NCBI GenBank assembly: GCA_035771165.1
Contig: JAWNZC010000314.1
Span: 3,939,001 to 4,003,000 of the forward strand
Reading direction: 5' to 3'
Length of the DNA: 64,000 nucleotides
Source of the DNA: Paragorgia papillata
Taxonomy: Eukaryota > Cnidaria > Anthozoa > Scleralcyonacea > Coralliidae
The notes below the pieces were generated by a model. It saw only the letters and a program-made list of their open reading frames with translations. It did not search any database and was not told where the DNA came from. The translations under genes were made by a program, and so were the position numbers. Positions 14,776 to 56,059 of the stretch are shown here, piece after piece; the stretch's first letter is position 1, and each line of letters begins with the position of its first letter.

Positions 14776-15049
14776 GTCAGTTAATTACCTTGAACCTCGG
14801 CTTTTATCCAAATAAACCCCTGGGGCCTGCGGCCCCTGGAATGGCCCCTGAGCCACAGAATAAAGAACTGAGCAGAAGGGCCACTCGCAGTCGCTCTGAG
14901 TATTTCCCGCGCGTTTTTTTTTCGCAATCCTGAAATTCCACGCTGGCGCGTCCTGCGAGGAACCCGCGAGGCGACCAGTTGGCCCGCACTTCCGCGCGCT
15001 TATATACAAATTGTGATCAGCCAGAGCCTCTGAAAGCCGTGTGATCAAT
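14776..15049 (+). promoter_or_regulatory. Gene A upstream region and core promoter
   Basis: The first about 80 bp (GTCAGTTAATTACCTTGAAC...) is a repeat shared with 32826-32890. After it the DNA becomes unusually GC-rich (about 14880-15000). The motif CGCACTTCCGCGCG (14985-14998), with an ETS-type ACTTCCG core, is followed at once by CTTATATA (TATA-like). The same arrangement occurs upstream of paralog gene B (43171-43192). The ATG lies about 45 bp downstream, so this is probably the core promoter of gene A. Confidence 0.6.
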
Positions 15050-18000
15050 ATGGCGCCATCATGTTCAGCTCGCCTTGCAAGCACCATTAGAAATTACATA
15101 AAAAATCGTTATATGTTATGGAATAAAGGAGAAAATGCAGCGAGTCGAAAAGATATCTGTGATGTCGTTGGTCAATTAGATATTTTGTTCGCGTTCTTCG
15201 AACAAATTGGTTTAAAGGAAGAACGTTTTAATATAAAGTTATTCGAAAGCGTTCCAATAACTTCAGAACTTTCTCGTTTGAGAAAATGTAGCACGAGTGT
15301 TAAAGATTTTATCAGAAATCACTGGTACGAAATAGAGGATGTTGATGATGGATGTGTGCTGTCCTTTAAAGACGAAATAGGCGATGTAGTCTGCACGGTC
15401 TTGTATGAAGAAGCAAGGGCACTTGTGGAAGAATGTGCCTACATCGTTCGTGATCTCATTAAAGATCACTGTAAAGCCCATGGTGACACTGTTTGCCAGT
15501 TGTGTGAGAACGAAGTCTTGATTGGAGGAATGGTGTGTTCCCAAGAAACAGATAGAGAGTCTGGCATACATCCAGCTATAAACGCCAAAAAAGCAATTGA
15601 GGATGAATGCAGCCCTGCAAAAATCTATCCAGAAAGTTTTAGCACCAGTTCTTCATCAGTTTCAAGTGATGAAACAAACAGAAGATCTTGTGCACCGACT
15701 CACAAAGGAGCTGCTCGTGGTCTGCCTAATTTCCCTCCCAAGGATAAGGATTCCAATCTATTAGATGGTGAGTGTTTTTAAAAGGGCATATTTACTGGTA
15801 TAATAAAATCAATTGCATTGTTAATGAAATTGTGTACATATCTTTATCACATATAAATTTACCACATATAAATTTACCAACATGCCCCTGATGTCCTTTG
15901 TGTTTTCCTTGTGAATTATATATTATTGCAAGTAGCAGCCTCCCAGTGATGAATAGATCTGAAAATAAATGGGGCCACTACTTTTGGGATTGTAGATTCC
16001 ACAGTAGCATGGTATGTTTAATAGAGGGGGGATTTACCAGCCCATGGTAACTTTATGATCCTGGGAAAATATACTAAGAATTATATTCAACAGTATTTGA
16101 GTACTGTACATGGGATTGACAATGTGAAGATACTAAAAGTTTAATTTTCCCATTTTTCTTCTAGAATTTATTCCTAGGTCAGGGGTAGATCCAGACCCTA
16201 CGACAAGTCCAACACCAAGCTCTCACACAGATAAATATCAAACAAATGAGGTACAGATGCTAAGTAAATATAGAAAGTATTAATAAATAGCATTATTGAT
16301 ACCATAAGTGTAGTACAGACTCAAGCTCAAAGTTAAATAAAAAGTTTGTGAGCCAAATAAAATTATTAGGAACTAAATTAATACATATTAATAAAGACAT
16401 TGATTCATGGTATTTAGTAACACTCAGCTGAGAATTTTGTTTTTATCTAAATTCAATTTATTAGGTCAAGTACTGATGTAGACTATACACTACAGCCATA
16501 GGAGTTCATTTTCTAGATTAACCCATTTATTTGTTTGCCAATGATAAATCATACAATATTTGTTAAATCAACCCTTTTAAGTGTTGAGCTCCCTCATCTC
16601 TTCCAATTATTAATTGTGATGCCCCAATCAATGCAGTGGTGGGATTAAACCCTCCCAGACTTGGGGGGGGGGGGGGGAAGAATATTTTGAGGCCAGTCAT
16701 AACACTAGATCGAGCTGCTCCTGGAGGGCTTGCTACTTTCTGGGGGGGCATTACTTTTGGGAGGCTGTTACTTTCTGGGGGCCACTACCTTCTGGAGGGC
16801 TGCTATTTTTGATGGGCCAACTACTTTTGGGGGCTGTTACTTTCAGGATTCTACGAAAATGGATAAAAATGTTCAGTATAGTTTGCACAGGTCTGCCATT
16901 AATATTGCATGATAAGTTGATACCACTATTCATGTATATTAATATACTGAAGTATTTGTAAAGAAAAGAAAAGAAACTGAACAATTTTTTCTATTCACTC
17001 ATTTTTTGGGCTGGTCAAAATCTGAGGCTGGGGCAAATGCCCCCTTCACCCCATAGATAATTGTCTTCCTTTACGGAGGACTCATCCTCAGAGGAAAACA
17101 CAAATGATTCAAGATCTGCATCACCACCATATAATACATATGAAGGTAAAATAAAAGCAGAACTAGCCTGCATACTGCGTAGCAGGCGTTCTGTTCTGGG
17201 GGAGAGGTGTCGGTGGAGTGCGCGCGAGAGGTGAGAAAAAATAAAGCGAGGCGAGATGAAAATAGGGGGGGCGGGAAAATATTGGGGGAGAGGCGGAAGA
17301 ACGCCTGGCAAAATCCTATTCATAAACGAGACTTTTGTGTCCAAAACCTTTGGTTAAACTCCCATTGGTTTATATGCCTTTTGGCGTCAACACTCAGTGA
17401 GTCCTCAATGAAACCTGTCAACACATCTGTGTAAAGCTTGCAAACCAAGTTAACCAACAGAGCTCGTTCACTCTGTATAACAGTTCTTTCAGTATTTCAG
17501 TTATTTCAATACCCCCACTATTTTTTCTTCTCGCCTCGCTCTATTTTTTCTTCGCCTCTCACGCACGCTCCACCAGCACCTCTCAAGCCTCTTTCCGCTA
17601 TCTCCCCTGGAACAGAACGTAGCAGCAGGCTAAAGCAGAGCATGAATCATTGAACAACCTACTTGATTACTGACATGTTGACAGATCAATGGCTACGAGC
17701 ATAGCCAACCTCGTACCCAGGGCCTTCTCAAAATGGTGGGGCGAAGAGAAGACATGATTGGAAATCGCATAGAAAATCGGCCACTTTCATGGGGTTGTTC
17801 GCAGTCCACGTGCGTGCTGGCTCAAGTGAGGTGTCGGCTGTGTATTGATGATGTTTACATGCAAGATATTCGTTCTACGCATGCGTAGCTTATACGGGTC
17901 AGCCTGTATTTCGTGAGCCACCATTTCCAATCGTGCCCTAGCAAAGGCTGGTCCCAAGAATTTTGGAATATTTTGATGAGTGACTCACACTGTACCGGGG

Positions 18001-20167
18001 GTACATATTTGCTTTATACTAAATGCAAGCAAGAAGTGTTTATTTGTTTCTGGACTTTCCGAATCTAATTTAAAAAGTTTAGAAATATACAAAGTCAAAG
18101 TCTTCAGTGCTGATCTAATTATGTTCGTCGATCGTGGTATTGTTGTTGATCGAATATTTGTATTAAAATACAACCTCGACGAGGATAGTAGATTCGAATA
18201 TGTCGTTTGAATATCAAATTGACAGATACAACAATTAAGATTGTTGCATGACAACCTTCTACATTTATAAGAACCATGATAAGAACCGAATCAACCGTTC
18301 CCCCCAGGACTGGTGAAGTTCAAATTATCCACATGACCAAATACTCCACGAATCCACGAGTATTTCGGAATCACATGCCCAGCCTTCTCATAGAGATCAT
18401 ATAAATACTAGAGGGGGCATTGGCAGGAAAATTTGGTATGGGTCTTCTCCTCTCGCCATTTTGAAAACAGACAAGACCCTGGGTACGAGGTTGGAGCATA
18501 GTCTGGTACCCTGGCCCAATCAAAGAATATGGGCCAGGTAACCACTAAAGACTTCTGCTTTCCTATTGGTTAAAATTTTGCCCGTTTTTATTGGCTATGA
18601 GTGAAACTGCAATCGTCATAAGTGGATTTAGCCCTGATGACGCGAGAATGAGATTGGTTACCTGTGGTTACCTGGTTACCTGGCCCATATAATAATAATA
18701 ATAATAATAGTCTTTTATTAATGAACATAACTCCTAAACAAACATAGGAGCTTTATAATATCAGTAGTTAAAAAGTACAAAGTATTTACAATGTATTTAG
18801 AAATACTAGTCCTATATAAACTCTAATAATACGAAACATATAAAATATCAATCAAAATCAAAAAGACATCTATTTACAAATACTCGTTTAAATCTCTCTG
18901 TGTTAACATTAGGAAGAATATAATTATGCTTACGCTCTCTCAATTTCCTAGCTCTCTGGGGTGGTAGCAGTTCATTAAGTGGATTACAGTGATTGCTAAT
19001 AATTTTGTTCCATAATTTACAGTCCCGTTGATTAATAACATCATGCAGTAATAGTAATAAGATCGCGAGTATACCCAAACCTGTGTGCACGACGAAGAAA
19101 ACGGTCTATCTGTCCGAAATACTTATTTGTATATGCACAGCCCCATACCTCGATACTAAAATAAAAGACTGGCATAATTAAACAATTAAATAATAGGTAG
19201 AGATCCTCTTTAGTATAACCATAAAATTTACATACTCTTAAAATATGAAGAGTTGAACTGGCCTTATTTAGTATGTATTTAAAATGCATATCCCAATTAT
19301 ACGGGTTGTTTTGAAAAGTGCTGGCATTTGAGAAGAGCCATTGTGGAGTTGTGCCCTTTCTTGTACGCGTACTGGTCAGATCCAATAAACTCAGTATTCA
19401 GATGAGATAATTCATTTTGGTAAACAACAAACTATATTAGAGTACTGTATAATGTATATTTCTTTACTTAATTTGAAGGAACATCATCAAGTGATTCTGA
19501 TGTAGAGTTTGCGAGTGTTGCCTCCCAGGAGACTTTTGAAGACTTTCCTAAATACAACGAAGAAATATTAAGAAAATTCGAAAGATTTTCAACCTACTGG
19601 CGTAACCGCAAAGTGAGGAAGGTTGACGAAGGTGCGAATTATGCCCTTATTTATCATGTGGTTAAGGAAGATGACATTAAACACAAGTTATTTGAAAGTG
19701 TGGAAGATAGCTGGAACTGGGCTCATGAACATATAGGTTTAATGGAAGAAAACTATCCATTTATACTTGTGAAAATACTTAAAGCTGCTCCACGTTCTTC
19801 CAATGTTGGCATAGAGGGTACTCCTAAGTTTTCAGTAGTAATTAAAGACCCAAGCAAGCGTTTAGACCCCCTAAAATTGCAAGCTGGTGTGGACACAGCA
19901 GCTGATGAATCAACAATGGGTTTTAACTCTGAACATGTTAAACGCCGCTTGCACTCAGTTCGGAAGATTGAACATGATTGGAAGCCTGTAGTATATGGCT
20001 ATATGAGTGTGGAAGGAGAGGATATTGAGCATATTTGTGAAATGGATGTTGATCCTGATTCTCCCTGGAATGGTGTGGGTATACGACAACTAAAGGCTCT
20101 TAATGAAGACACTCTGAAAAGTATATTTTATCGTCTTTGTCAGTCCTTCAGCACTGCTCAGAACTAA
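15050..20167 (+). CDS. Gene A: novel four-exon protein, degenerate retropepsin-like C-terminus
   Basis: Exons 15050-15767, 16165-16250, 17079-17145 and 19479-20167 join in phase (1, 0, 1) with GT/AG ends to give 519 residues. Exon 1 encodes a conserved domain (residues 1-165), probably helical, with C141-x2-H144-x4-C149-x2-C152, then a Ser-rich stretch (197-206). Exons 2-3 are short and Ser/Thr/Pro/Asp-rich. Exon 4 holds a small domain (about 320-395) and a region (405-500) with VDTAAD (428-433) and later VGIRQL (490-495). This spacing resembles a retropepsin flap and the hydrophobic-Gly element, but the active-site Gly is replaced by Ala429+2 (D429-T430-A431). Gene B (43230-50182) is a paralog in all parts. 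The start is chosen by alignment with gene B (MAPS...). Intron 3 carries several transposons. I do not recognise the family. Exon 3 start is the least certain boundary. Confidence 0.78.
16660..16850. repeat. G-run and degenerate GGGGCTGTTACTTTC repeat in gene A intron 2
   Basis: A 17-base G-run (about 16662-16678) is followed by five to six imperfect repeats of a 20-25-bp unit (GGGGGCTGTTACTTTCTGG type). No coding potential. The rest of introns 1 and 2 shows nothing recognisable. Confidence 0.6.
17165..17631. mobile_element. MITE with imperfect 130-bp inverted ends (gene A intron 3)
   Basis: The left end AGCCTGCATACTGCGTAGCA and right end (GCTGCTACGTTCTGTTCCAG in reverse complement) continue as imperfect arms, with GGTGAGAAAA... 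mirrored near 17520-17560. It starts only 20 bp after the exon 3 donor. No coding sequence. Confidence 0.6.
17705..18493. mobile_element. hAT-like non-autonomous element, TSD GAGCATAG
   Basis: The termini CCAACCTCGTACCCAGGG and its reverse complement (ending at 18493/4) extend about 45 bp inward as an inverted repeat. The flanks read GAGCATAG at 17697-17704 and again at 18494-18501, a 7-8-bp target-site duplication. No transposase is seen. It lies in gene A intron 3. Confidence 0.8.
18503..18690. mobile_element. GGTACCCTGGCCCAAT-type MITE, copy in gene A intron
   Basis: It shares about 180 bp with the complete copy at 41525-41731, including the stretch TCATTCTCGCGTCATCAGGG (in one orientation or the other). 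Both ends carry CTGGCCCA motifs. The right end is blurred by repeats of TGGTTACCTGG. Confidence 0.7.
18695..19390 (-). pseudogene. LINE RT C-terminal fragment with (ATT)n tail
   Basis: Minus-strand frames 19385-19041 and 19090-18848 together read as the post-RT domain of a CR1/L2-like LINE (WDMHFKYILNKASSTLHILR, LIMPVFYFSIEVWG, then CKLWNKII). A frameshift lies near 19050. The tail (18691-18712) is an ATT/AAT microsatellite, as on the LINE at 12.4-14.8 kb. It is a 5'-truncated insertion in gene A intron 3. Confidence 0.8.
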
Positions 20168-27501: not shown

Positions 27502-29112
27502 TTAGTGTGCAAAAGGCATCGAACAGTTTCTAATGTGCGAGTGGTCCGTACGAACTTGAAAAACACTAATCATTACTGGAGAAAAATAACACATAGCTAC
27601 AGTCACTGATATAACATTAGCCATCAAATGACGTAACCAATACTTTGACCAAACTCTCTTGATTGGGATATCATGAAAATGAATCTGAATCCAGATTGCA
27701 ATCCAGTTAAAAACAAACTCGATTCCGACACCAATCGCAACCCGAATACAGACATTTTCTCGGAGTAGTACTTCACTCAGCGAAACCTCCGCGATTTCAA
27801 ACTGCGAGAGAACAACAAAAGCTTGACTGAGAATAAAAGCGATATACTGAAACAGCATAGTCTGAATTTCAACATCGGCACGAAGGCGTCTGTTTTGTGC
27901 TGTATCAAACGGTACGTGTCCACGTTTTGCACAACAGGGACAACAGCTTTTCGAAGACTTGATAATGAACTTCCACATTCTAATCTGAAGGCTTTGTGTC
28001 GCGTGGAATATTATATTGAGGCCGCCATCAAGAAGAGAAAGGCCGGTAAACAATCCCAGACTTTTGAAATCGGCTTGCATAATACGGTACAAACTAATCG
28101 GGATACTTTGAATGAAATACACGAACACAAAACATCTTTCTGCGTAGACCATGCCTGAGCTAGCTGTTAAAGCAATGTAATTCGCAATAGCTACAGCTGG
28201 AAGGTTTATCATTGGCGAAATGGCTGCAAGAATGGCCTTTTTTAGTTCATCTTCGTAATTATTAAAAGCAGGGATAATACAATACCTATACAGCAAACAC
28301 CATATGAAGGTAAGCACAAACGGCATTGCAATAATCAGACCGATTTTCGTTTTACTCCATTGGAACCTGGGTCGTGATTCATGAAGCTTTCTAGCCACAA
28401 CCGCACTACTGCAAATGACACCTGCAAAATATAATATATTTCCAGGAATTGTGTAGACAAGACCCTTTCCAAAAAGGCCGAAAATCAGCGAGAATGCTTT
28501 GTAGATTATAATTACTGCTCCAACCGCAAGCCCAATAGCTACAGTAGCGAGATAATGAGATTTGAATTCTGTCCAACCGAATAGTAAGGCTATTGTGGCT
28601 GCAAACCATAAATTAATGGGAATCGTTTGAATAGATACACCGAGAAATTGCCATCTTTTAACGGAGAATGATGTACTCGTGTTTTCGTTCTTTGTTTCCA
28701 AGCATAAATCTGTAGTATTAAGATCAATGTAAAGCGTGATGATAGGAATAACTGCTAAGGGTAGGGCCACAAACATGATTGTGAAACTCGTCCAAAAACT
28801 TTTTGCGACAGATCGAAGATAATTTCTGGGGCTTGCTTCTTCCTCATTCTCTCTAGATGTCGCAGTTATGGGGGTTGTAAAGATCTCGGACTTCTCTTGT
28901 AGTAACTGATATCCGAGGAGGGACGGCTCAGCTGCTTTGGGATGTTCTCGATCAATGTGATCCGACCAAAGCGTTCTTGTATTATCCGGAGGATACTCTT
29001 GACAACTCAAGTCCGTCTCACTCTCTACGTTTGCATTGAAATTTCTTGCCTGCTCTGAAGTGCAACCAGTCATAAGCCATACAAGAATACTTACAATCTC
29101 TTCGAGAATCAT
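27502..29112 (-). CDS. Intronless multi-pass membrane protein (about 10 TM), unknown family
   Basis: An open frame runs from 29211 to 27502 (569 codons). The first Met lies inside the adjacent MITE (29195-30016), so the Met at 29112 (MILEEIV..., 536 residues) is the more likely start. Hydrophobic segments, in numbering of the long frame, lie at about 141-163, 195-213, 219-239, 250-273, 289-310, 327-350, 355-378, 450-470, 488-508 and 528-550. A CCPCC cluster (423-427) with basic residues lies in the loop between segments 7 and 8. An acidic soluble stretch (51-135) precedes the first strong segment. A long uninterrupted frame amid decayed transposons suggests selection. I do not recognise a transporter or receptor family. 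It could be an intact retrogene or a lineage-specific membrane protein. Confidence 0.75.
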   Translation of the reverse strand: MILEEIVSILVWLMTGCTSEQARNFNANVESETDLSCQEYPPDNTRTLWSDHIDREHPKAAEPSLLGYQLLQEKSEIFTTPITATSRENEEEASPRNYLRSVAKSFWTSFTIMFVALPLAVIPIITLYIDLNTTDLCLETKNENTSTSFSVKRWQFLGVSIQTIPINLWFAATIALLFGWTEFKSHYLATVAIGLAVGAVIIIYKAFSLIFGLFGKGLVYTIPGNILYFAGVICSSAVVARKLHESRPRFQWSKTKIGLIIAMPFVLTFIWCLLYRYCIIPAFNNYEDELKKAILAAISPMINLPAVAIANYIALTASSGMVYAERCFVFVYFIQSIPISLYRIMQADFKSLGLFTGLSLLDGGLNIIFHATQSLQIRMWKFIIKSSKSCCPCCAKRGHVPFDTAQNRRLRADVEIQTMLFQYIAFILSQAFVVLSQFEIAEVSLSEVLLRENVCIRVAIGVGIEFVFNWIAIWIQIHFHDIPIKRVWSKYWLRHLMANVISVTVAMCYFSPVMISVFQVRTDHSHIRNCSMPFAH

Positions 29113-29194
29113 TTTCGTAGTAAGCTCTGCCTTTACTCCCTTCTCAATTATGCGAGGTCTTATACAACATTTCTTACACTGATCTAATAACTTA

Positions 29195-30016
29195 GGCCAT
29201 GTCCACACCAATCCGTTTTCAAACGAAAACGGAGACCTCGTATCGAAAGCGTATCAAATGTTTTCCGTCTACATGCTATCGTTTTCGAATAATTTTTGTC
29301 ATCCACTAAAAGACCGCCTTTGGCCACGTCCATACACTAATCCGTTTTCAAACGAAAACAGAGGCTTCTTGATATACGGTAAGGTAATGGTCTTTCGTCC
29401 ACACTAATCCGGCGTCTTCGGTGACCGAAAACGGAGCTTCTCGAAAACGCTGATGTCACGATGATTATGCATTTATGCGATCTGGGTTCCAGTCACCCAC
29501 GGCCTTTACGATGCTATTAAAGACGACGACGGCGGTTAAAAAGCAACATAAAGTTTTGTATTAAAAAAGGTCACGACTGATATTTGAAGCTATTTTAATG
29601 ACTTTCAAAACGCCCCAGTTCTGCTAAAATGTGTCAGTATTGAAGTCAATCTTAACCAACATGCAGTTCTCATATTTTGGTAAGTTGACGTCGCCCTGAA
29701 GACGTGAAAATGCTCTATTTGCGTTGAATAAAGAACGAGGACGCTGTTCAGAGATTATATACTCTAGGGAGGAAAAATTATTCATTCTCTTTGTTTCGCA
29801 ACTAATTATTTTATTTAAACGACGACGTCGTTGAAGTTGCCATTGTACTTCGTAAAGTCCCTATATATAATGTGCTTTTTCTGGCTCATTTCGGTGTTTC
29901 AGTGTGGATGGCAAAAACGATTCGAAAACGATAGTGTATACGGAAAACTCTTGATACGTTTTCGATACGAGGTCTCCATTTTTGTTTGAAAACGGATTAG
30001 TGTGGACGATATGGCC
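29195..30016. mobile_element. PIF/Harbinger-like MITE, TSD TTA
   Basis: The ends GGCCATGTCCACACCAATCC and its near reverse complement (ending 30016) continue about 100 bp inward (CGTTTTC...CGAAAACGGAGACCTCGTATCG). TTA flanks both sides (29192-29194 and 30017-30019), the 3-bp duplication expected of PIF/Harbinger. An internal third copy of the end lies at 29315-29365. Copy 1 of the duplicated block begins inside the right end of another copy (about 4508-4580). Confidence 0.85.
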
Positions 30017-42768: not shown

Positions 42769-43229
42769 GGCTCTGGAAACTCCGATGAAAAAGACCCCAA
42801 AATTGGGTTTTTGTTCCCAGTCCTCTGGTTCCCAGTTCCCTATAATTTGTACAATCATCGACGATCGTTCGCTTGTTCGAAGACCAGGAAAAATATTTGT
42901 TTACCGATAAAAAGGCCCAACATGTTTTACAAAGCTCTCGACAATACAATCGATAGAAATGGCCTTTCTTCACTTTTCTCAAAATCGTCAACCAGACGAT
43001 TTGACGAGTGTGTTTTAAATGTCCGCGTCGCCGTCAGCACTCGGCAGTAATCGGGTAATAATTCCATGTCCTACATAACCCAAGTACTTCATACCCTCCG
43101 TTCCTTGGTAATGACCAAAAGGATCGCAGGCTCTGGGTACGAGATTGCTTATGTCACTGAATCCTTTTGCCGCACTTCCGCGCGATTATATATTGTAACA
43201 AATGTACAGATGCATCAGATGAAACTAAG
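42769..43229 (+). promoter_or_regulatory. Gene B upstream region with core promoter motif
   Basis: Up to about 43150 the sequence is repeat-like (TCGCAGGCTCTGGGTACGAG resembles the reverse complement of 38592-38612). CGCACTTCCGCGCG (43171-43184) followed by ATTATATA matches the arrangement before gene A. The ATG is about 45 bp downstream in both genes. Confidence 0.6.
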
Positions 43230-46200
43230 ATGGCACCTTCACCTTCTCGCATTGCTACCACCGTAAAAGATTACATAAAAAATCGTTATATATTATGGAA
43301 TAAAGGAGAAAATGCAGCGAGTCGAGAAGATATCCGTGCTGTCGTTGGCCAATTAGATACTTTGTTCGCCTTCTTCGAACAAACTGGTTTAAAGGAAGAG
43401 CTTTTTAATAACCTATTGGAGAACGTTTTAAGAACCTTAAAGCTCCCCGATTTGGGAAGATGTGGTGCGAGTCTTAAAGACTTAATCAGAAATCATTGGT
43501 ACGAAATCCAGGATGTTAATGGTCGATGTGTGCTTTCTTTTAAAAACGAAAGAAGCGATGTAGTCTGCACGGTCTACTGTGAAGAAGCAATCAGACTTGT
43601 GGAACAATGTGCCCATATTATCGTTAAAGATCTCATCAGAGATCACTGTCAAGCCCATGGTGATACTGTTTGCCAGTTATGTGAGAACGAAGACTTGATT
43701 AAAAGAATGGTGATAACGTCCCCAATTGAGACAAATAGTGAGTCTGACATACATCCAGCTATAAACGCCAAAAAAGAAATTGAGGATGAATACACTGATA
43801 CTACATCGTATGTAGATTATTCTAGCCCTGCAAAAACATATCCAGAAAGTTTTAGTACCAGTTCTTCGTCAGTTTCAAGTGATGAAACAAACAGAAAATC
43901 TTGTGCACCTGCTGGTGGTCAGGCTAATCTCCTTTTCAAGGATGAGGGTTCAAATCTATTAGATTTAGATGGTGAGTGTTTTTAAACGGTATAATAAAAT
44001 CAATTGCATTGTTAGTTGAGTAAAAACACGTTTACACACGTAAAAACATGTTTACACACGTAAAAACATGTTTGCATACAACACAATTTTTGTTTCTGAT
44101 TTGATGAATGTTGCAATTTGCAATGCATAATTAATTTTATCAATTCTGGCAAGACACAAAATCTCATTGTTTTAAATACTGTATGAACTGTACATGAACA
44201 AACAGAACTTGTAAATTACTAATATGTTGAAAAAAGCTGATAAAAACAAATTTTGTTGGGTGTTCGAAGCTTTTAGTGCCAGCCCAGGTTGGAAAAAAAC
44301 CAGCCTGGGTAACCGAGATCTTGGTCTCACCATAGACAATCCAGAAGACAGGGACTAGAAACGCCACTGATTTCGCGCGACTCCTTTCGTGACATCCGTG
44401 ATATGATTTTCAGCACGTAAGAATTATCGGTTGTCAAGGCAACCGGCTTTAAACCAGAACAAAAACGATAGTAAACATACGCGGTTTATGCAAATTTATT
44501 CGAAGAAGATACGTGCTATAGAGATTTTTGAAGTTTACCTGTCAACAGAGATATATTTTCAAGGTATGTACGTTTTTTAATGTTTATTCTTACAGTAAAT
44601 AGCGATTATAATTCTCGTCTTGTTTTGCTCTTTGTGTCAAAATGGCGCACGTAACAATCACGCTAGTTAGATAGAGCTCTTTGGAACCCTGTAACTTTAA
44701 ACTCAGACTCTCAGTAGCCCTCTCCTTTGGATATTTTGAATCTCTGATGGGATATTTACGAAATTAAAGCAGTTTCAAATTGTCAATCTAGTGTAAAAAG
44801 TGCTTTACTTTCGTCACTACGTACACGAGTACAAAAAAGTCGCCATTGTTGTTGTCGAAGTATGCTCTCAAAAGGAACCCTGTAACTAAAATTTGAAAGA
44901 GTTTTAGGACCTTGGAATTAAATATTTAGAATAAGAAAATAATTATCAACGAAACTGTCGCTTCTTTATTATCTGTTTAGTTTTCTATTAACCAGAAACT
45001 CCCATTGATTGTGCGCGTAGTGTTCACGACTACAACAAAGTCGCCATTTTTGTTGTCGAAAGATGCTCTCAATAGGAACCCTGTAACTATAAAATTTGAA
45101 AGAATTTCAGGACTTTGTATTTTTATATTTAGAATAAGAAAAGAATTATCAACGGAACTGTCGCTTCTTTATTATCTGTTTAGTTTTCTATTAACCAGAA
45201 ACTCCCATTGATTGTGCGTGTAGTGTTCACGACTACAACAAAGTCGCCATTTTTGTTGTCGAAAGATGCTCTCAATAGGAACCCTGTAACTATAAAATTT
45301 GAAAGAATTTCAGGACTTTGTATTTTTATATTTAGAATAAGAAAAGAATTATCAACGGAACTGTCGCTTCTTTATTATCTGTTTAGTTTTCAATTTACCA
45401 GAAATTTCCATTGATTGTGTGTATGATATCTGAGTTTATACTTGTAGAATGTAAGAAGGTCTAACGGTATAATATCTCAACAAACTGTTTAGATGCCATA
45501 TAGAAAAGGCTATTCAGTCAAAAAAAGGTTCAAGTTGAAGAGAATGGAATCCAAATGAGAACTGCAACATTCTCAATTTAAATAATTTGTGCCAGCACCA
45601 GACTGGTCTGCCAAGCCTTGGCAACTTGCTAGCTTGGTGGTGTAATGATTGCCAGCCCGAGATACCCCACTGGGGATTGCGACCCTCCAAATTTAGTACT
45701 GTGTACATCTATTTACTGACTTTATCTATGCATCCTTATATCTTGCAACTACACAGTGCTGTTATCCATTAATAATAATGCAATAAATAATATTAAAACT
45801 AGCCGTGTGTTGTTTATGTGGCTCCAACCCCCCGGTTCATTGTGGCTATCTGGTCACGCATGGCACACGTGAAGTATCACACTCCAGCGATTAAAGAATC
45901 AGGCACTGTTGAACAGAGGCACGTGATACATGCATGCTTAGAAGGCTGATGCAATATCTGGAACTACTAGTCAGGGTTTCCTGGGCCCGAGCTCAGCATT
46001 GTTGGCACCATTTCTCGAGTGGTTCAAAACAATTTGTGTTTGAAAACAATTTGTGAATCACAGATTGAATGAAAAGCTTGGTACTAGGTTGCTGAAATAG
46101 TGCTGGATTAAAGGTAAACCTCAAATTTTCTGACAAAATCAGGATCTGAACAGAGGACATGAAAAGCTTGCCACATGTTTCATGCTGATTGGTAGGTAAC

Positions 46201-49200
46201 TACTTTAAATCCCCTGCTGTTGCTGCAAAGTTTAGCTAATATGATGTGAAGCATTTTCACATCACATAGTCTTCTATATTTTGTAGCATACATTCAGCAG
46301 AAGAAATTATTTTAGGACCATGTTAGGATCCTTTAATTTTGTTAAAGGGATTAGATATTATTTCAATAAGTGTTTCCACCAATAACCGTTCACCATCATT
46401 ATATAAGTTGGTGAACAAGTATTTTGTATCACTGGTATGAGGAATCTCTGTATTAAAAAACAACAACAAAAAAACAAAAGCTAGGAAGGGTGAAAATCCA
46501 TACAGAATTTAATACAAAAAACTTATACCCATTGTACACTGAATTAATTCCATCTGAATTTTGTGGATATTACTGTATTTCCCCAAACTCATTATTCCAT
46601 AAGTTTTATGTATTGTTTGATCTGTGCATGTTTGAACAACTTAATATACTACAAGATATTTAACAGTCTTAACAGTACTAAAATCGTACAAAAATATTAA
46701 CACCACATACTACAATTCATAGTTTATTCCATATATCTGTAGTTAATACAAAATCATTTATACATATACTGTACTGCATTTATACAAATGAAACAGACTC
46801 ACTTTCTTTTTAAACATAATCTTCCTGTAGTTTATATGTTCACAGACAATCCAGAAGACAACATTTGTCTTCTGGACTGTATAAAGATCTGTTACACAAG
46901 TCAGTTAATATGAGTGAAGAGGTATTATCTCTTAAACTACTGCCTACGACAATTTGTAGCAAGAATTAAACCATAATTTTGAAGTTTTACCCAGAGGCTT
47001 TGCTCTCTTTTTACTTGAATGTACGTTTGTGTTTTCCATCTGAAATTGAGAAATAAAAGGGATACATCGAAACATAATTTATTAGATTTTTAATTCAAGA
47101 CAAAAAATGAGCATATGAAAACGTTTACCACAAGGGAATAATTAATTACCTTCATTTTCAGTTATTTCTCCGTCTTCGCTACTTGAATCTTCGCCCTCGC
47201 TCTCACTGTCTTCTACAAAATCTATCTCCAATATCAGAATATCTGGTTATACGTCCATGTCCTATTTACACGAATTGCCATCCTTAGGTTAGGTCATATG
47301 GTTAGGTTGTGTGTTGGGGTAAGGCTTTCATGAAGTACTTGGGTTATGTAGGACATGGAATTATTACCCAATATCTCATCCCAGTTGACCGCATCCGCCA
47401 TATTTTATTATTTTGGTATTAAACGAGCCCGCACAATTTATGCACAGACCGTATCACGGATGTAACGCGCGAAATCAGTGGCGTTTCTAGTCCCTGTCTT
47501 CTGGATTGTCTATGGTCTCACAAAGCGAGATCTCAGCTAGGTGGAATGGCTTGGCTCTCATATAAACACAAGATGAAAATTAAGAAGAAATAATATATTA
47601 ACACCATCTTACAGTTGCTTGTTGGTGAATGTCATGATGGTATAAAGGATGTTAGTGATGATATTAATTATAATCATGATAATCAGAATGTTTCTGAACT
47701 CCAGAATGGCAGATGTATTAAAAAATACTCTTGCACCTTAAAAGGTGAGTACCGGTAGTGGTAACTTTACAATCGTGATAAAAAATTTATATACTGTAAT
47801 AAGAATTACATTAAACTGGGGTAATTGGCAATGTGGTTGATAATGAAAGAAAATACTAAAACTTTTTCCTGTTTTTCTTCTAGACTTTATTATTAGTTCA
47901 GACCCTGAGTCCAGAAGAGAACCACTGCCAGCTGTGGGAAAAAGTCAAACCTCTGATGCAGATGACTGGTCAGATACATCAGAATATGTAATTTTGCCCT
48001 GTATATTATTAATGCATAAAATTTTGTGACTTTTCATAACTAGTGTTGCAGAACACTTAGAACTGTGTACGTAAAAAATTTTTTTACACTGATTAGTGTT
48101 GCCATAACCACATTTTTTGATGAAAAAATAGTTTCTGAGATATTAACCACAGGCACTCCCCCCCAAAAAAAAACCACAAAAACAACCAGAAGACAAAAAA
48201 AAGCCCAGTCTAGATAGGGTTAAGGCAAGTGACCTTGATGGCCAGGAAAGCTCAAGTGACTCATTCACTCTATATCATTAAAGGCAACATCACCCACAGA
48301 GGACTCATCCTCTTCAAGCTTTAACCTAGTTGTGTAGCTCACGAAGACACTCGGTGACCCGTTTTCCCCCCCCAACTATTAATTTCCTCTACCAGCTCTA
48401 CAGCATATATAAAATAACAGAGGAAAAATCACTTTTTTATAATAAGAAATATTGTTTGTTTTTCATTCTTGTGGCTTCAAATAAACATGCAACAAGAAAG
48501 AATGTGTTCATTCCTATATTGCAAGTTCTGTAGTTCCACCATTTTGAAATTCTCAACCATCAGCAGTCATCTGATCTGTAGTACAGCAAGTCATTTTATT
48601 CTGTCAATATGTGTAAATAAACTACATCTACTTTCCTTTACTCCATCTTATCTTCAGTTCTACTATTTATAATTATTTGATATAATTACACTTAAATTTC
48701 TTTAAGGCAAGTGACGTTAATGGCCAGGAAAACTCAAGCGATTCAGATGGATCTTGCTCTATTTCATTTAAGTCAACCTCATCCTCAGAGGAAAGCACAA
48801 ATGATTCAAGATCTACATTACTACCATATAATACATATGAAAGTAAAATAACAGGAGAGCATAAATCATTGGGGCAGTACTGGGACACAAAGGAAAAGAA
48901 AATTACAAGTCATGCCCAAAATTCTGGTAGGTATTTTATTGACAATAAAATTATTGTCATTTACAAGAATGAAAAGGAGACAGAATACAGTCTCTTCAAG
49001 AATGAACAAGATGCAATAAGTTGGTGTTATAAAAGTAAAGGTATAATGAAAAAAATATTCCCAGTTATATTTTTGTCCAAAATATTCAATAAAAGTCAAA
49101 GCCCATCCACAAAGGAATCAAATTTGGAAAATGTTGATGGAGAGATTACCCCAAAGTTTCCAGCACATGAGCCTGATTCACCAGGTGTTGGCAGAGACAG

Positions 49201-50182
49201 TACTACAATATTCACAGTATGTCCTGATTCACCAGGTCTTGGCAGAGACAGTACTCCAATATTTACAGCACGGCCTGATTCACCAGGTGTTGGCAGAGAG
49301 AAAACCCCAAAGTTTACAGCACAGCTCAGAGTGCCAGGCATGAAGTTCCCACAAATGTCTTTTTACATGGACACAGGAGCTGATGGTGGTTCAGTTGGTT
49401 TCAATCCTGAATTTCTTAAGGGTTGCCTGCATTCAGTTGAAATGATTGCAAATGAGATGACGATCATAATATTTGCCAAAATCTCTGTGGAAGGACATGA
49501 ACTTTCAAAGTTTTATCATTTTGATGTTGATCCTGATTCACGCTGGTGTTGTTTGGGTATTGAGCAATTAAAAGACCTTCCAGATAAATTAGGTTGTGAA
49601 ATGTTTTTAGATGCATGGGAACAAATTAAGTCCTCTAAGAACTCCCAACATCAGAAGCCATTATCCTGCTACCAGCCATGTAGCAAATCCATCAGTAAAT
49701 ACCAAGAGGACCAACCACCATCTAGCCAATCCACAAGCAACTACCAAGAGGACCTACCATCATCTAGCCAATCCACCAGCAAGTACCAAGAGGACCCACC
49801 ATCATCTAGCCAATCCACCAGCAAGTACCAAGAGGACCCACCATCATCTAGCCAATCCACCAGCAACTACCAAGAGGACCAACCATCATCTAGCCAATCC
49901 ACCAGCAAGTACCAACCATCATCTAGCCAATGCATCAGCAAGTACCAAGTGGACCCACCATCATCTAGCCAATCCACCAGCAAGTACCAAGAGGACCCAC
50001 CATCATCTAGCCAATCCACCAGCAAGTACCAAGAGGACCAACCATCATCTAGCCAATGCACCAGCAAGTACCAAGTGGACCCACCATCATCTAGCCAACC
50101 CACCAGCAAGTACCAAGAGGACCAACCATCATCTAGCCAATCCACCAGCAACAGTGAACATAACCAACCTGACCCACTATGA
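43230..50182 (+). CDS. Gene B: paralog of gene A with DTGA motif and 14-residue repeats
   Basis: Exons 43230-43971, 47884-47987 and 48707-50182 join in phase (1, 0), giving 773 residues. Residues 1-165 match gene A exon 1 closely, including C140-x2-H143-x4-C148-x2-C151, followed by the same Ser-rich SFSTSSSSVSSDETNR stretch. The last exon fuses what are exons 3 and 4 in gene A. It contains a small domain (about 345-410), three copies of a 17-residue PDSPGVGRDST-type repeat (437-485), and a region (490-570) with YMDTGADGG (502-510) and CCLGIEQL (563-570), as expected for a retropepsin-like aspartic protease monomer. Residues 608-765 are about eleven copies of a 14-residue unit (STSKYQEDPPSSSQ). 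Intron 1 (3.9 kb) hosts a large transposon. The family is not recognised. The protease assignment is inference from motif spacing and paralogy. Confidence 0.78.
44816..45420. repeat. About 203-bp tandem repeat, three units
   Basis: Units starting near 44816, 45014 and 45217 share GTGTTCACGACTACAACAAA, AGTCGCCATTTTTGTTGTCG and AGGAACCCTGTAACT. The last two are almost identical and give the same 68-codon frame twice, which I regard as non-coding. Confidence 0.9.
47247..47372. mobile_element. 126-bp MITE nested in the intron transposon
   Basis: Inverted copy of 42650-42768. AATATCT flanks it on both sides (about 47238-47244 and 47371-47377), a 7-bp target-site duplication. Confidence 0.7.
47615..47744 (+). 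CDS. Possible alternative exon in gene B intron 1
   Basis: An acceptor (ACCATCTTACAG) and a strong donor (AAAAG|GTGAGTAC) bound a 130-bp open stretch, LLVGECHDGIKDVSDDINYN and onward. It ends in phase 1, compatible with exon 2 at 47884, but needs an upstream exon ending in phase 0, whereas exon 1 ends in phase 1. It could be an alternative first-part exon or a decayed exon. Confidence 0.35.
48222..48335 (+). pseudogene. Ghost duplicate of the gene B last-exon start
   Basis: GGCAAGTGACCTTGATGGCC at 48222 parallels GGCAAGTGACGTTAATGGCC at 48706. Similarity continues through CAGGAAAGCTCAAGTGACTC and the GACTCATCCTC motif. A stop follows after about 18 codons. It lies in intron 2, about 485 bp upstream of the real exon. 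Confidence 0.7.
49684..50150. repeat. 42-bp coding minisatellite in gene B
   Basis: About eleven units of 42 bp (CATCTAGCCAATCCACCAGC core) encode the 14-residue repeat. One unit is shortened (near 49905). The period keeps the other forward frames and one reverse frame open, which explains shadow ORFs at 49611-50255 (plus) and 50253-49867 (minus). Decayed units continue to about 50300. Confidence 0.92.
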
Positions 50183-55355: not shown

Positions 55356-55468
55356 TTTCAGTCTTCTGTTTTCACAAACTTTGTTGCACCACGTGGTTGA
55401 AATTCATGTAATCTTCATTATTGAGGACTTTAGTTCGTTAGTTCCCAGACTCTTCCCACACGTCCAAG
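55356..55468. promoter_or_regulatory. Bidirectional promoter between TMA16 and TIMM29
   Basis: Only 113 bp separate the two divergent start codons. It contains a CACGTG E-box (55390-55395). TIMM29 starts in the context AAGATGGCGGC (55466-55476), which matches a YY1-type site often found at start codons of housekeeping genes. No TATA box is seen. Confidence 0.65.
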
Positions 55469-56059
55469 ATGGCGGCTTCCAGCGCACGAAACGCTTTTAA
55501 AACTCTGGGCAAAGTAAACCGTGTACTTTTACCACAACTGGAAAACATTCGTGATTCACGGCTTGGTAAACCGTTTTTCCTTATCTACGTGGACTACAAG
55601 AACGTTTTTGTAGACTTGTGTTTATTTCTTTACAAGAAGCCACTCCGTGGTTTGGTAAACTTTTCGATTCTTGGTGTTTTTGCTGGAATATGGGCGAAGA
55701 ACCCCGAAGCGGAGTCATACACAGTGCAATTAATGGAGAACGCAAACACTTTGCTTTTGCTTGGCGATAAAGTACGAAACCCGAAATCAAATGCTTATAT
55801 TCAACGACTGGTGGGGCTTCATTCAGAAAACCGACTTAAAAAATACAACTTGGGACTGTTTTCGTTGGTTTTAGAGCAAGAGTATAGTGATACGTCTTGT
55901 TATTACGAAGCCAAGTGCTATTATTTTAAGGCACGTTGGATTTACATGTATAAAAATATCATCGATATTGGACTTGTGGGAAAGTGGTATTTCTTGGACA
56001 AGGCAATGGTGGATTATGATATCAATGAAGAGGAGCTTGCAATATTACCAGTTGATTGA
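55469..56059 (+). CDS. TIMM29: TIMM29 homolog (TIM22 complex subunit of the mitochondrial inner membrane)
   Basis: An intronless frame of 196 residues. The C-terminal two thirds carries the Tim29 signature: a membrane segment (about residues 60-77, LRGLVNFSILGVFAGIWA), then NTLLLLGDKVRNPKSNAYIQ (about 92-111), NLGLFSLV, YEAKCYYFKARW, then DIGLVGKWYFLDKAMVDYDI and NEEEL. Tim29 is known as a metazoan subunit of the TIM22 carrier translocase, which inserts multi-pass carriers into the inner membrane. Human TIMM29 is about 260 residues. This one ends soon after the DYDINEEEL motif and so has a much shorter C-terminal tail. AATAAA follows at 56104-56109. The ATG is supported by AAGATGGCGGC context and the absence of upstream frame. 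It is divergent from TMA16. Confidence 0.92.
   Translation: MAASSARNAFKTLGKVNRVLLPQLENIRDSRLGKPFFLIYVDYKNVFVDLCLFLYKKPLRGLVNFSILGVFAGIWAKNPEAESYTVQLMENANTLLLLGDKVRNPKSNAYIQRLVGLHSENRLKKYNLGLFSLVLEQEYSDTSCYYEAKCYYFKARWIYMYKNIIDIGLVGKWYFLDKAMVDYDINEEELAILPVD

Follow-up and report, generated by a model that had tools for sequence, protein, structure and literature searches.

Two duplicated, probably lineage-restricted genes of the cnidarian Paragorgia papillata, with a faint clan AA hint in their C-terminal domain

ASPRV1 and PEG10 of mammals are examples of domesticated retroelement genes, and they carry clan AA retropepsin-like domains, as do DDI1 and the proteases of long terminal repeat (LTR) elements. 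These domains, together with the taxonomically restricted gene families of cnidarians, are the closest described counterparts of two predicted genes, A and B, in a stretch of 64,000 nucleotides from the anthozoan Paragorgia papillata (assembly GCA_035771165.1, contig JAWNZC010000314.1, positions 3,939,001 to 4,003,000; this whole stretch is referred to as the window, and coordinates count from its first letter). With the restricted cnidarian families (PMC6158316), A and B have in common the lack of detectable relatives in the collections searched, local duplication, and segments of low complexity and of tandem repeats; they differ in that the restriction of A and B was judged against non-animal collections. 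B resembles the clan AA domains in the succession of a hydrophobic strand, a DTGA motif, an LG-hydrophobic motif and a likely helix, whereas A and B lack a profile match, the motif spacing of B is shorter, A has DTAA instead, and no flap motif can be recognized by eye. Very probably, A and B are host protein-coding genes that arose when a cnidarian gene, itself probably lineage-restricted, was duplicated locally long ago.

Both gene models were built from a listing of open frames, with exons spliced by hand, and in each the exons join into one open frame. Gene A (15050-20167, plus strand) has four exons encoding 519 residues, and gene B (43230-50182, plus strand) has three, encoding 773 residues. 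Exon 1 (15050-15767 in A, 43230-43971 in B) encodes the N-terminal domain and a Ser-rich linker and ends in phase 1, while exon 2 (16165-16250 in A, where it encodes linker, and 47884-47987 in B) ends in phase 0. In A, exon 3 (17079-17145) adds more Ser-rich linker and ends in phase 1, and exon 4 (19479-20167) carries the middle and C-terminal domains with the DTAA motif. B exon 3 (48707-50182) corresponds to A exons 3 and 4 together: linker, middle domain and C-terminal domain with DTGA and LGIEQLK, followed by a tail of 14-residue tandem repeats, which is encoded by an in-frame 42-bp array of 11.5 SSSQSTSKYQEDPP-like copies (49677-50151, plus strand). The spliced proteins align by BLASTP with 349 bits (E = 3e-116; residues 1-519 of A with 1-594 of B), and their identity is 72% in exon 1 and 32% in the last-exon pieces; a stretch of 81 bp with 91% identity links the third exons. 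All five modelled introns are GT-AG. The sequence-only reading had described two paralogous multi-exon genes with shared exon phases, and the paralogy is borne out by the alignment; introns 1 and 2 are identical in position and phase (1 and 0). The sharing does not extend to intron 3 of A (17146-19478, 2.3 kb), as the matching sequence in the B model is a continuous open frame. Judged by eye, two splice sites look weak, the acceptor of A exon 3 and the donor of B exon 2.

Several repeats lie within the introns of B. The beginning of exon 3 has a partial copy (77%) at 48220-48303, about 0.5 kb upstream of that exon, which may be a failed or alternative exon duplication. Intron 1 contains a 51-bp inverted repeat (44329-44379 and 47466-47516, 100% identical) flanking about 3.2 kb, a segment that looks like a recent DNA-transposon insertion, and a tandem repeat of a 203-bp unit at 44824-45419 (2.9 copies, 94% matches).

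Genomic copies were sought in the assembly of 617,864,297 bases on 473 contigs, and the match counts are lower bounds. The N-terminal peptide of B returned two matches at E 0.01, A and B themselves (all three candidates scored), and B exon-3 DNA occurs in two places. At E 10, the last exon of A matched only itself and two pieces of B, and the C-terminal domain of B matched only A and B. A transposon product present in hundreds of copies, which the sequence-only reading had named as a refuting outcome, is not supported: for the N-terminal domain, the DNA of B exon 3 and the domains of the last exon, A and B are the sole matches, exon 2 and the repeat tail of B lying outside these searches. A high-copy transposon protein was accordingly dropped as a candidate, and for practical purposes hundreds of copies can be ruled out.

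A and B also share an element of 22 bp upstream of the start codon. In A it reads CCGCACTTCCGCGCGCTTATAT (14984-15005, plus strand, 66 bp upstream of the ATG) and in B CCGCACTTCCGCGCGATTATAT (43170-43191, plus strand, 60 bp upstream), with the consensus CCGCACTTCCGCGCG[C/A]TTATAT, in which we take CACTTCCG to be ETS-like and TTATAT to be TATA-like. When the whole genome was scanned with up to two mismatches, exactly two sites were returned, those upstream of A and B, and the reversed pattern gave none. The surrounding sequence is poorly alignable between the genes, with 17 internal gaps across 127 aligned bases. Short of transcripts, the element is the strongest sign that both genes have kept promoter function, although common descent also contributes in its own right.

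The family had been called undescribed. No Pfam family was found above cut-off for A or B, the listed rows being at chance level (E 0.15-1.4), and no NCBIfam family either, with one match far below its cut-off (E 0.028; 13.4 of 310 bits). Among PDB sequences the best match, a phosphopantetheinyl transferase at E 0.018, is not credible. Queried with full-length A, with the alignment of exon 1 and with that of the last exon, a set of 5.8 billion proteins gave nothing at E 1 (7995, 7994 and 1819 candidates scored, respectively). In GTDB contigs and IMG/VR no relative was confirmed by tblastn, although the short peptide patterns used there reach few distant relatives, and a Foldseek search of PDB and BFVD with the exon-1 model returned nothing at E ≤ 0.001. 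Among the titles listed in literature searches on domesticated retropepsins and restricted cnidarian genes, none names such a gene. By description, the genome collections cover bacteria, archaea and viruses, none of the collections searched is devoted to animals, and the 5.8 billion proteins have an unspecified animal share, so the missing relatives are weak evidence for novelty. The absence of a Pfam or NCBIfam family thus agrees with the earlier description, while "undescribed" as such is not established. A and B are a real gene pair, and probably a lineage-restricted one.

One lead to a described fold comes from the C-terminal domain. In B (MDTGADGGSVGF), DTGA stands at residue 504 and LGIEQLK (CLG) follows 62 residues after the Asp; in A (VDTAADESTMGF), DTAA stands at residue 429 and VGIRQLK is also present. 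The order of DTG and ILG motifs is that of the clan AA template, as given in PMC2642776. For comparison, control retropepsins were collected by a PF13975 search of this genome, in which 150 of 1231 candidates were scored and 30 loci fetched. Removal of five pieces with a stop left 25, which were thinned at 85% identity to the nine used with hhalign; a set of ten, with one stop-bearing piece restored and cut at its stop, served for a two-block score, and both motifs were found by pattern in nine of these ten. The best PF13975 match among the candidates scored lies on genome contig C396 and reads DSGAQMTIM; it is probably the cellular DDI1 gene. Against the nine local retropepsins, the C-terminal domain of B reached a local hhalign score of 20.9 (E = 0.006); the best of 150 column shuffles gave 19.3, and the reversed sequence 11.0. 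Its two-block score of 14.3 was equalled by none of 2000 shuffles and ranked first among 100 open reading frames of at least 80 residues in the window, B included (the next reached 11.2 and 10.5). The ten references scored 22-57, all above B, and the low values of three of them (L021, L034 and L036) arise because the allowed spacing stopped at 72.

A number of results speak against this lead and against the interpretation built on it. The hhalign match spans only 10 columns around DTGA, at a probability of 6%, and in global mode the score is at chance level, being reached by 57 of 150 shuffles. The two-block score of A is 5.1, equalled by 51 of 2000 shuffles, and its second block is not VGIRQLK. 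The spacing of 62 residues in B compares with 70-74 in the nine local retropepsins measured. Neither whole exons nor cut domains matched a clan AA or aspartic-protease Pfam family at E 10, under HMMER filters that drop most matches above about 0.1. Structure prediction, which the sequence-only reading had proposed, yielded poor AlphaFold models, with a mean predicted local distance difference test score of 48 in exon 1 and of 32 in the last exon, where the model is not usable and was too poor for a structure search. Judged from these comparisons, clan AA ancestry of A and B is possible but rather doubtful; we would not class either as a protease, and the tail domain of B gives at most a faint hint. 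It is very unlikely that the two are a cnidarian-restricted enzyme and pseudo-enzyme pair in which B is a working retropepsin-like protease and A its inactivated partner, each with a new N-terminal recognition domain and a fast-evolving, target-facing half, and both under one private promoter element.

The same motifs lend themselves to another explanation, in which A and B are a domesticated Gag-Pro remnant of an LTR retroelement, the N-terminal helices and the Cys/His cluster descending from Gag and the C-terminal domain from the protease. The order of the domains and the DTGA and LG motifs of B fit such an origin. The spacing C-x2-H-x4-C-x2-C of the cluster differs from that of the retroviral knuckle and counts against it, as do the presence of at least two introns and the lack of any Gag, zinc-knuckle or protease Pfam family at E 10. 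Moreover, the N-terminal domain, exon 3 and the last-exon domains match only A and B in the genome, despite at least 150 PF13975 sites there. In mammals, retroelement-derived host genes that combine a Gag-like with a protease domain have been described (PMC11402058), and this lends the idea some precedent; on balance we regard it as unlikely.

Selection was examined through the nonsynonymous (dN) and synonymous (dS) divergence between A and B. For exon 1 (232 codons), dN and dS are 0.155 and 0.28 by NG86, 0.158 and 0.279 by YN00, and 0.156 and 0.269 by maximum likelihood (ML). The ratio is 0.55, with a bootstrap range of 0.36-0.91, and it is 1 or more in one of 500 replicates. For the C-terminal domain (113 codons) the corresponding values are 0.617 and 0.664, 0.577 and 1.568, and 0.685 and 0.703, with ratios of 0.93 (NG86; bootstrap range 0.58-1.48), 0.37 (YN00) and 0.97 (ML), which are indistinguishable from 1; its dN exceeds that of exon 1 by a factor of about four (0.617 versus 0.155). 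These figures demonstrate constraint on exon 1 but not on the last exon. The intact frames had been taken as a sign of selection, and this holds as purifying selection on exon 1 but not as constraint on the whole protein. Gene conversion may underlie the contrast between the two exons, but two comparisons of synonymous change between A and B disagree: among codons whose amino acid is unchanged, 24 of 163 differ in exon 1 and 16 of 50 in the last exon (Fisher p = 0.012), whereas four-fold sites differ in 13 of 61 and 3 of 17 (p = 1.0).

These data bear on the proposal that A and B are non-functional or decaying duplicates, whose frames have been kept by chance under little or no selection. The mild overall dN/dS, including the NG86 and ML ratios of the C-terminal domain, would be expected of such copies, and the differences in exon 1 are spread almost evenly over the codon positions (36, 34 and 41), with a slight third-position excess only; the weak-looking splice sites and the unshared intron 3 point the same way. 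On the other side, both sets of frames have stayed intact while dS in exon 1 reached about 0.28, the exon-1 ratio falls below 1 in all but one of 500 bootstraps, and the promoter element is conserved. The exon-1 gaps also keep the frame: internal gaps in the DNA alignment measure 3, 4, 2, 30, 3, 3 and 15, where the neighbouring 4 and 2 in A total 6, while in the poorly alignable adjacent intron three of 12 gaps are multiples of three and nine are of other lengths. Decay is a quite improbable account of the pair.

The products of A and B look like soluble, acidic, intracellular proteins, an intracellular location being predicted only. Their maximum KD19 values are 1.26 in A and 1.28 in B, with no stretch typical of a membrane span, for which the usual threshold is about 1.6. 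Residues 166-330 contain 18% Ser in A and 22% in B, and both proteins retain the Cys/His cluster HCxAHGDTVCQLC, from residue 140 (A) or 139 (B) onwards. The idea that the strand region of exon 1 recurs as an internal repeat in the middle domain was considered and dropped (hhalign score 7.4, equalled by 90 of 100 shuffles). It is highly improbable that the N-terminus is a HEPN-type RNase domain, a fold with a conserved R-x4-6-H, as in AbiV.

As the most likely mechanism we infer that A and B act as adaptors. The conserved N-terminal domain, predicted to consist of helices, a three-strand sheet, a long helix and then a possible zinc site (C-x2-H-x4-C-x2-C), would bind a partner that is itself conserved. 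Ser-rich linkers, disordered and perhaps phosphorylated, would join it to the fast-evolving C-terminal domain, which may meet variable targets or pair A with B. This last domain possibly represents a degenerate retropepsin-like fold of clan AA, in which B carries DTGA and A carries DTAA. Both genes would have inherited the promoter element, introns 1 and 2, and the N-terminal and C-terminal domains from their ancestor. The frames and exon models, the copy number, the promoter element and the unequal divergence were observed directly, whereas transcription, location, disorder, zinc, binding and fold are all inferred. An old duplicate pair with an adaptor mechanism and a possible degenerate clan AA C-terminal domain is the explanation of the whole that we favour, tentatively.

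Elsewhere in the window, reverse transcriptase pieces and a copia-like frame lie near A and B. An open frame for TIM29 (Pfam PF10171, E = 1.2e-47) occupies 55442-56059, and a frame of 583 residues on the minus strand (27502-29253) appears on inspection to contain many hydrophobic segments and matched no Pfam family above cut-off. A 15-bp satellite, TTTCACATTAGGCCA, is repeated 43.4 times at 2078-2733, and a related 15-bp unit occurs, inverted, at 1-124. The genome also contains a single GFP-family exon, whose 310 PDB matches, judged by the best 60, are fluorescent proteins of mainly anthozoan origin, in keeping with an anthozoan host.

Animal genomes hold lineage-restricted genes of unclear origin and role. 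The pair described here is convenient for testing, with its two copies, a private promoter element, and an N-terminal half that is conserved where the C-terminal half diverges. Should that diverging part prove to belong to clan AA, the pair would represent an aspartic-protease-like protein of the host, joined to a new partner domain, together with a natural copy that has lost the DTG.

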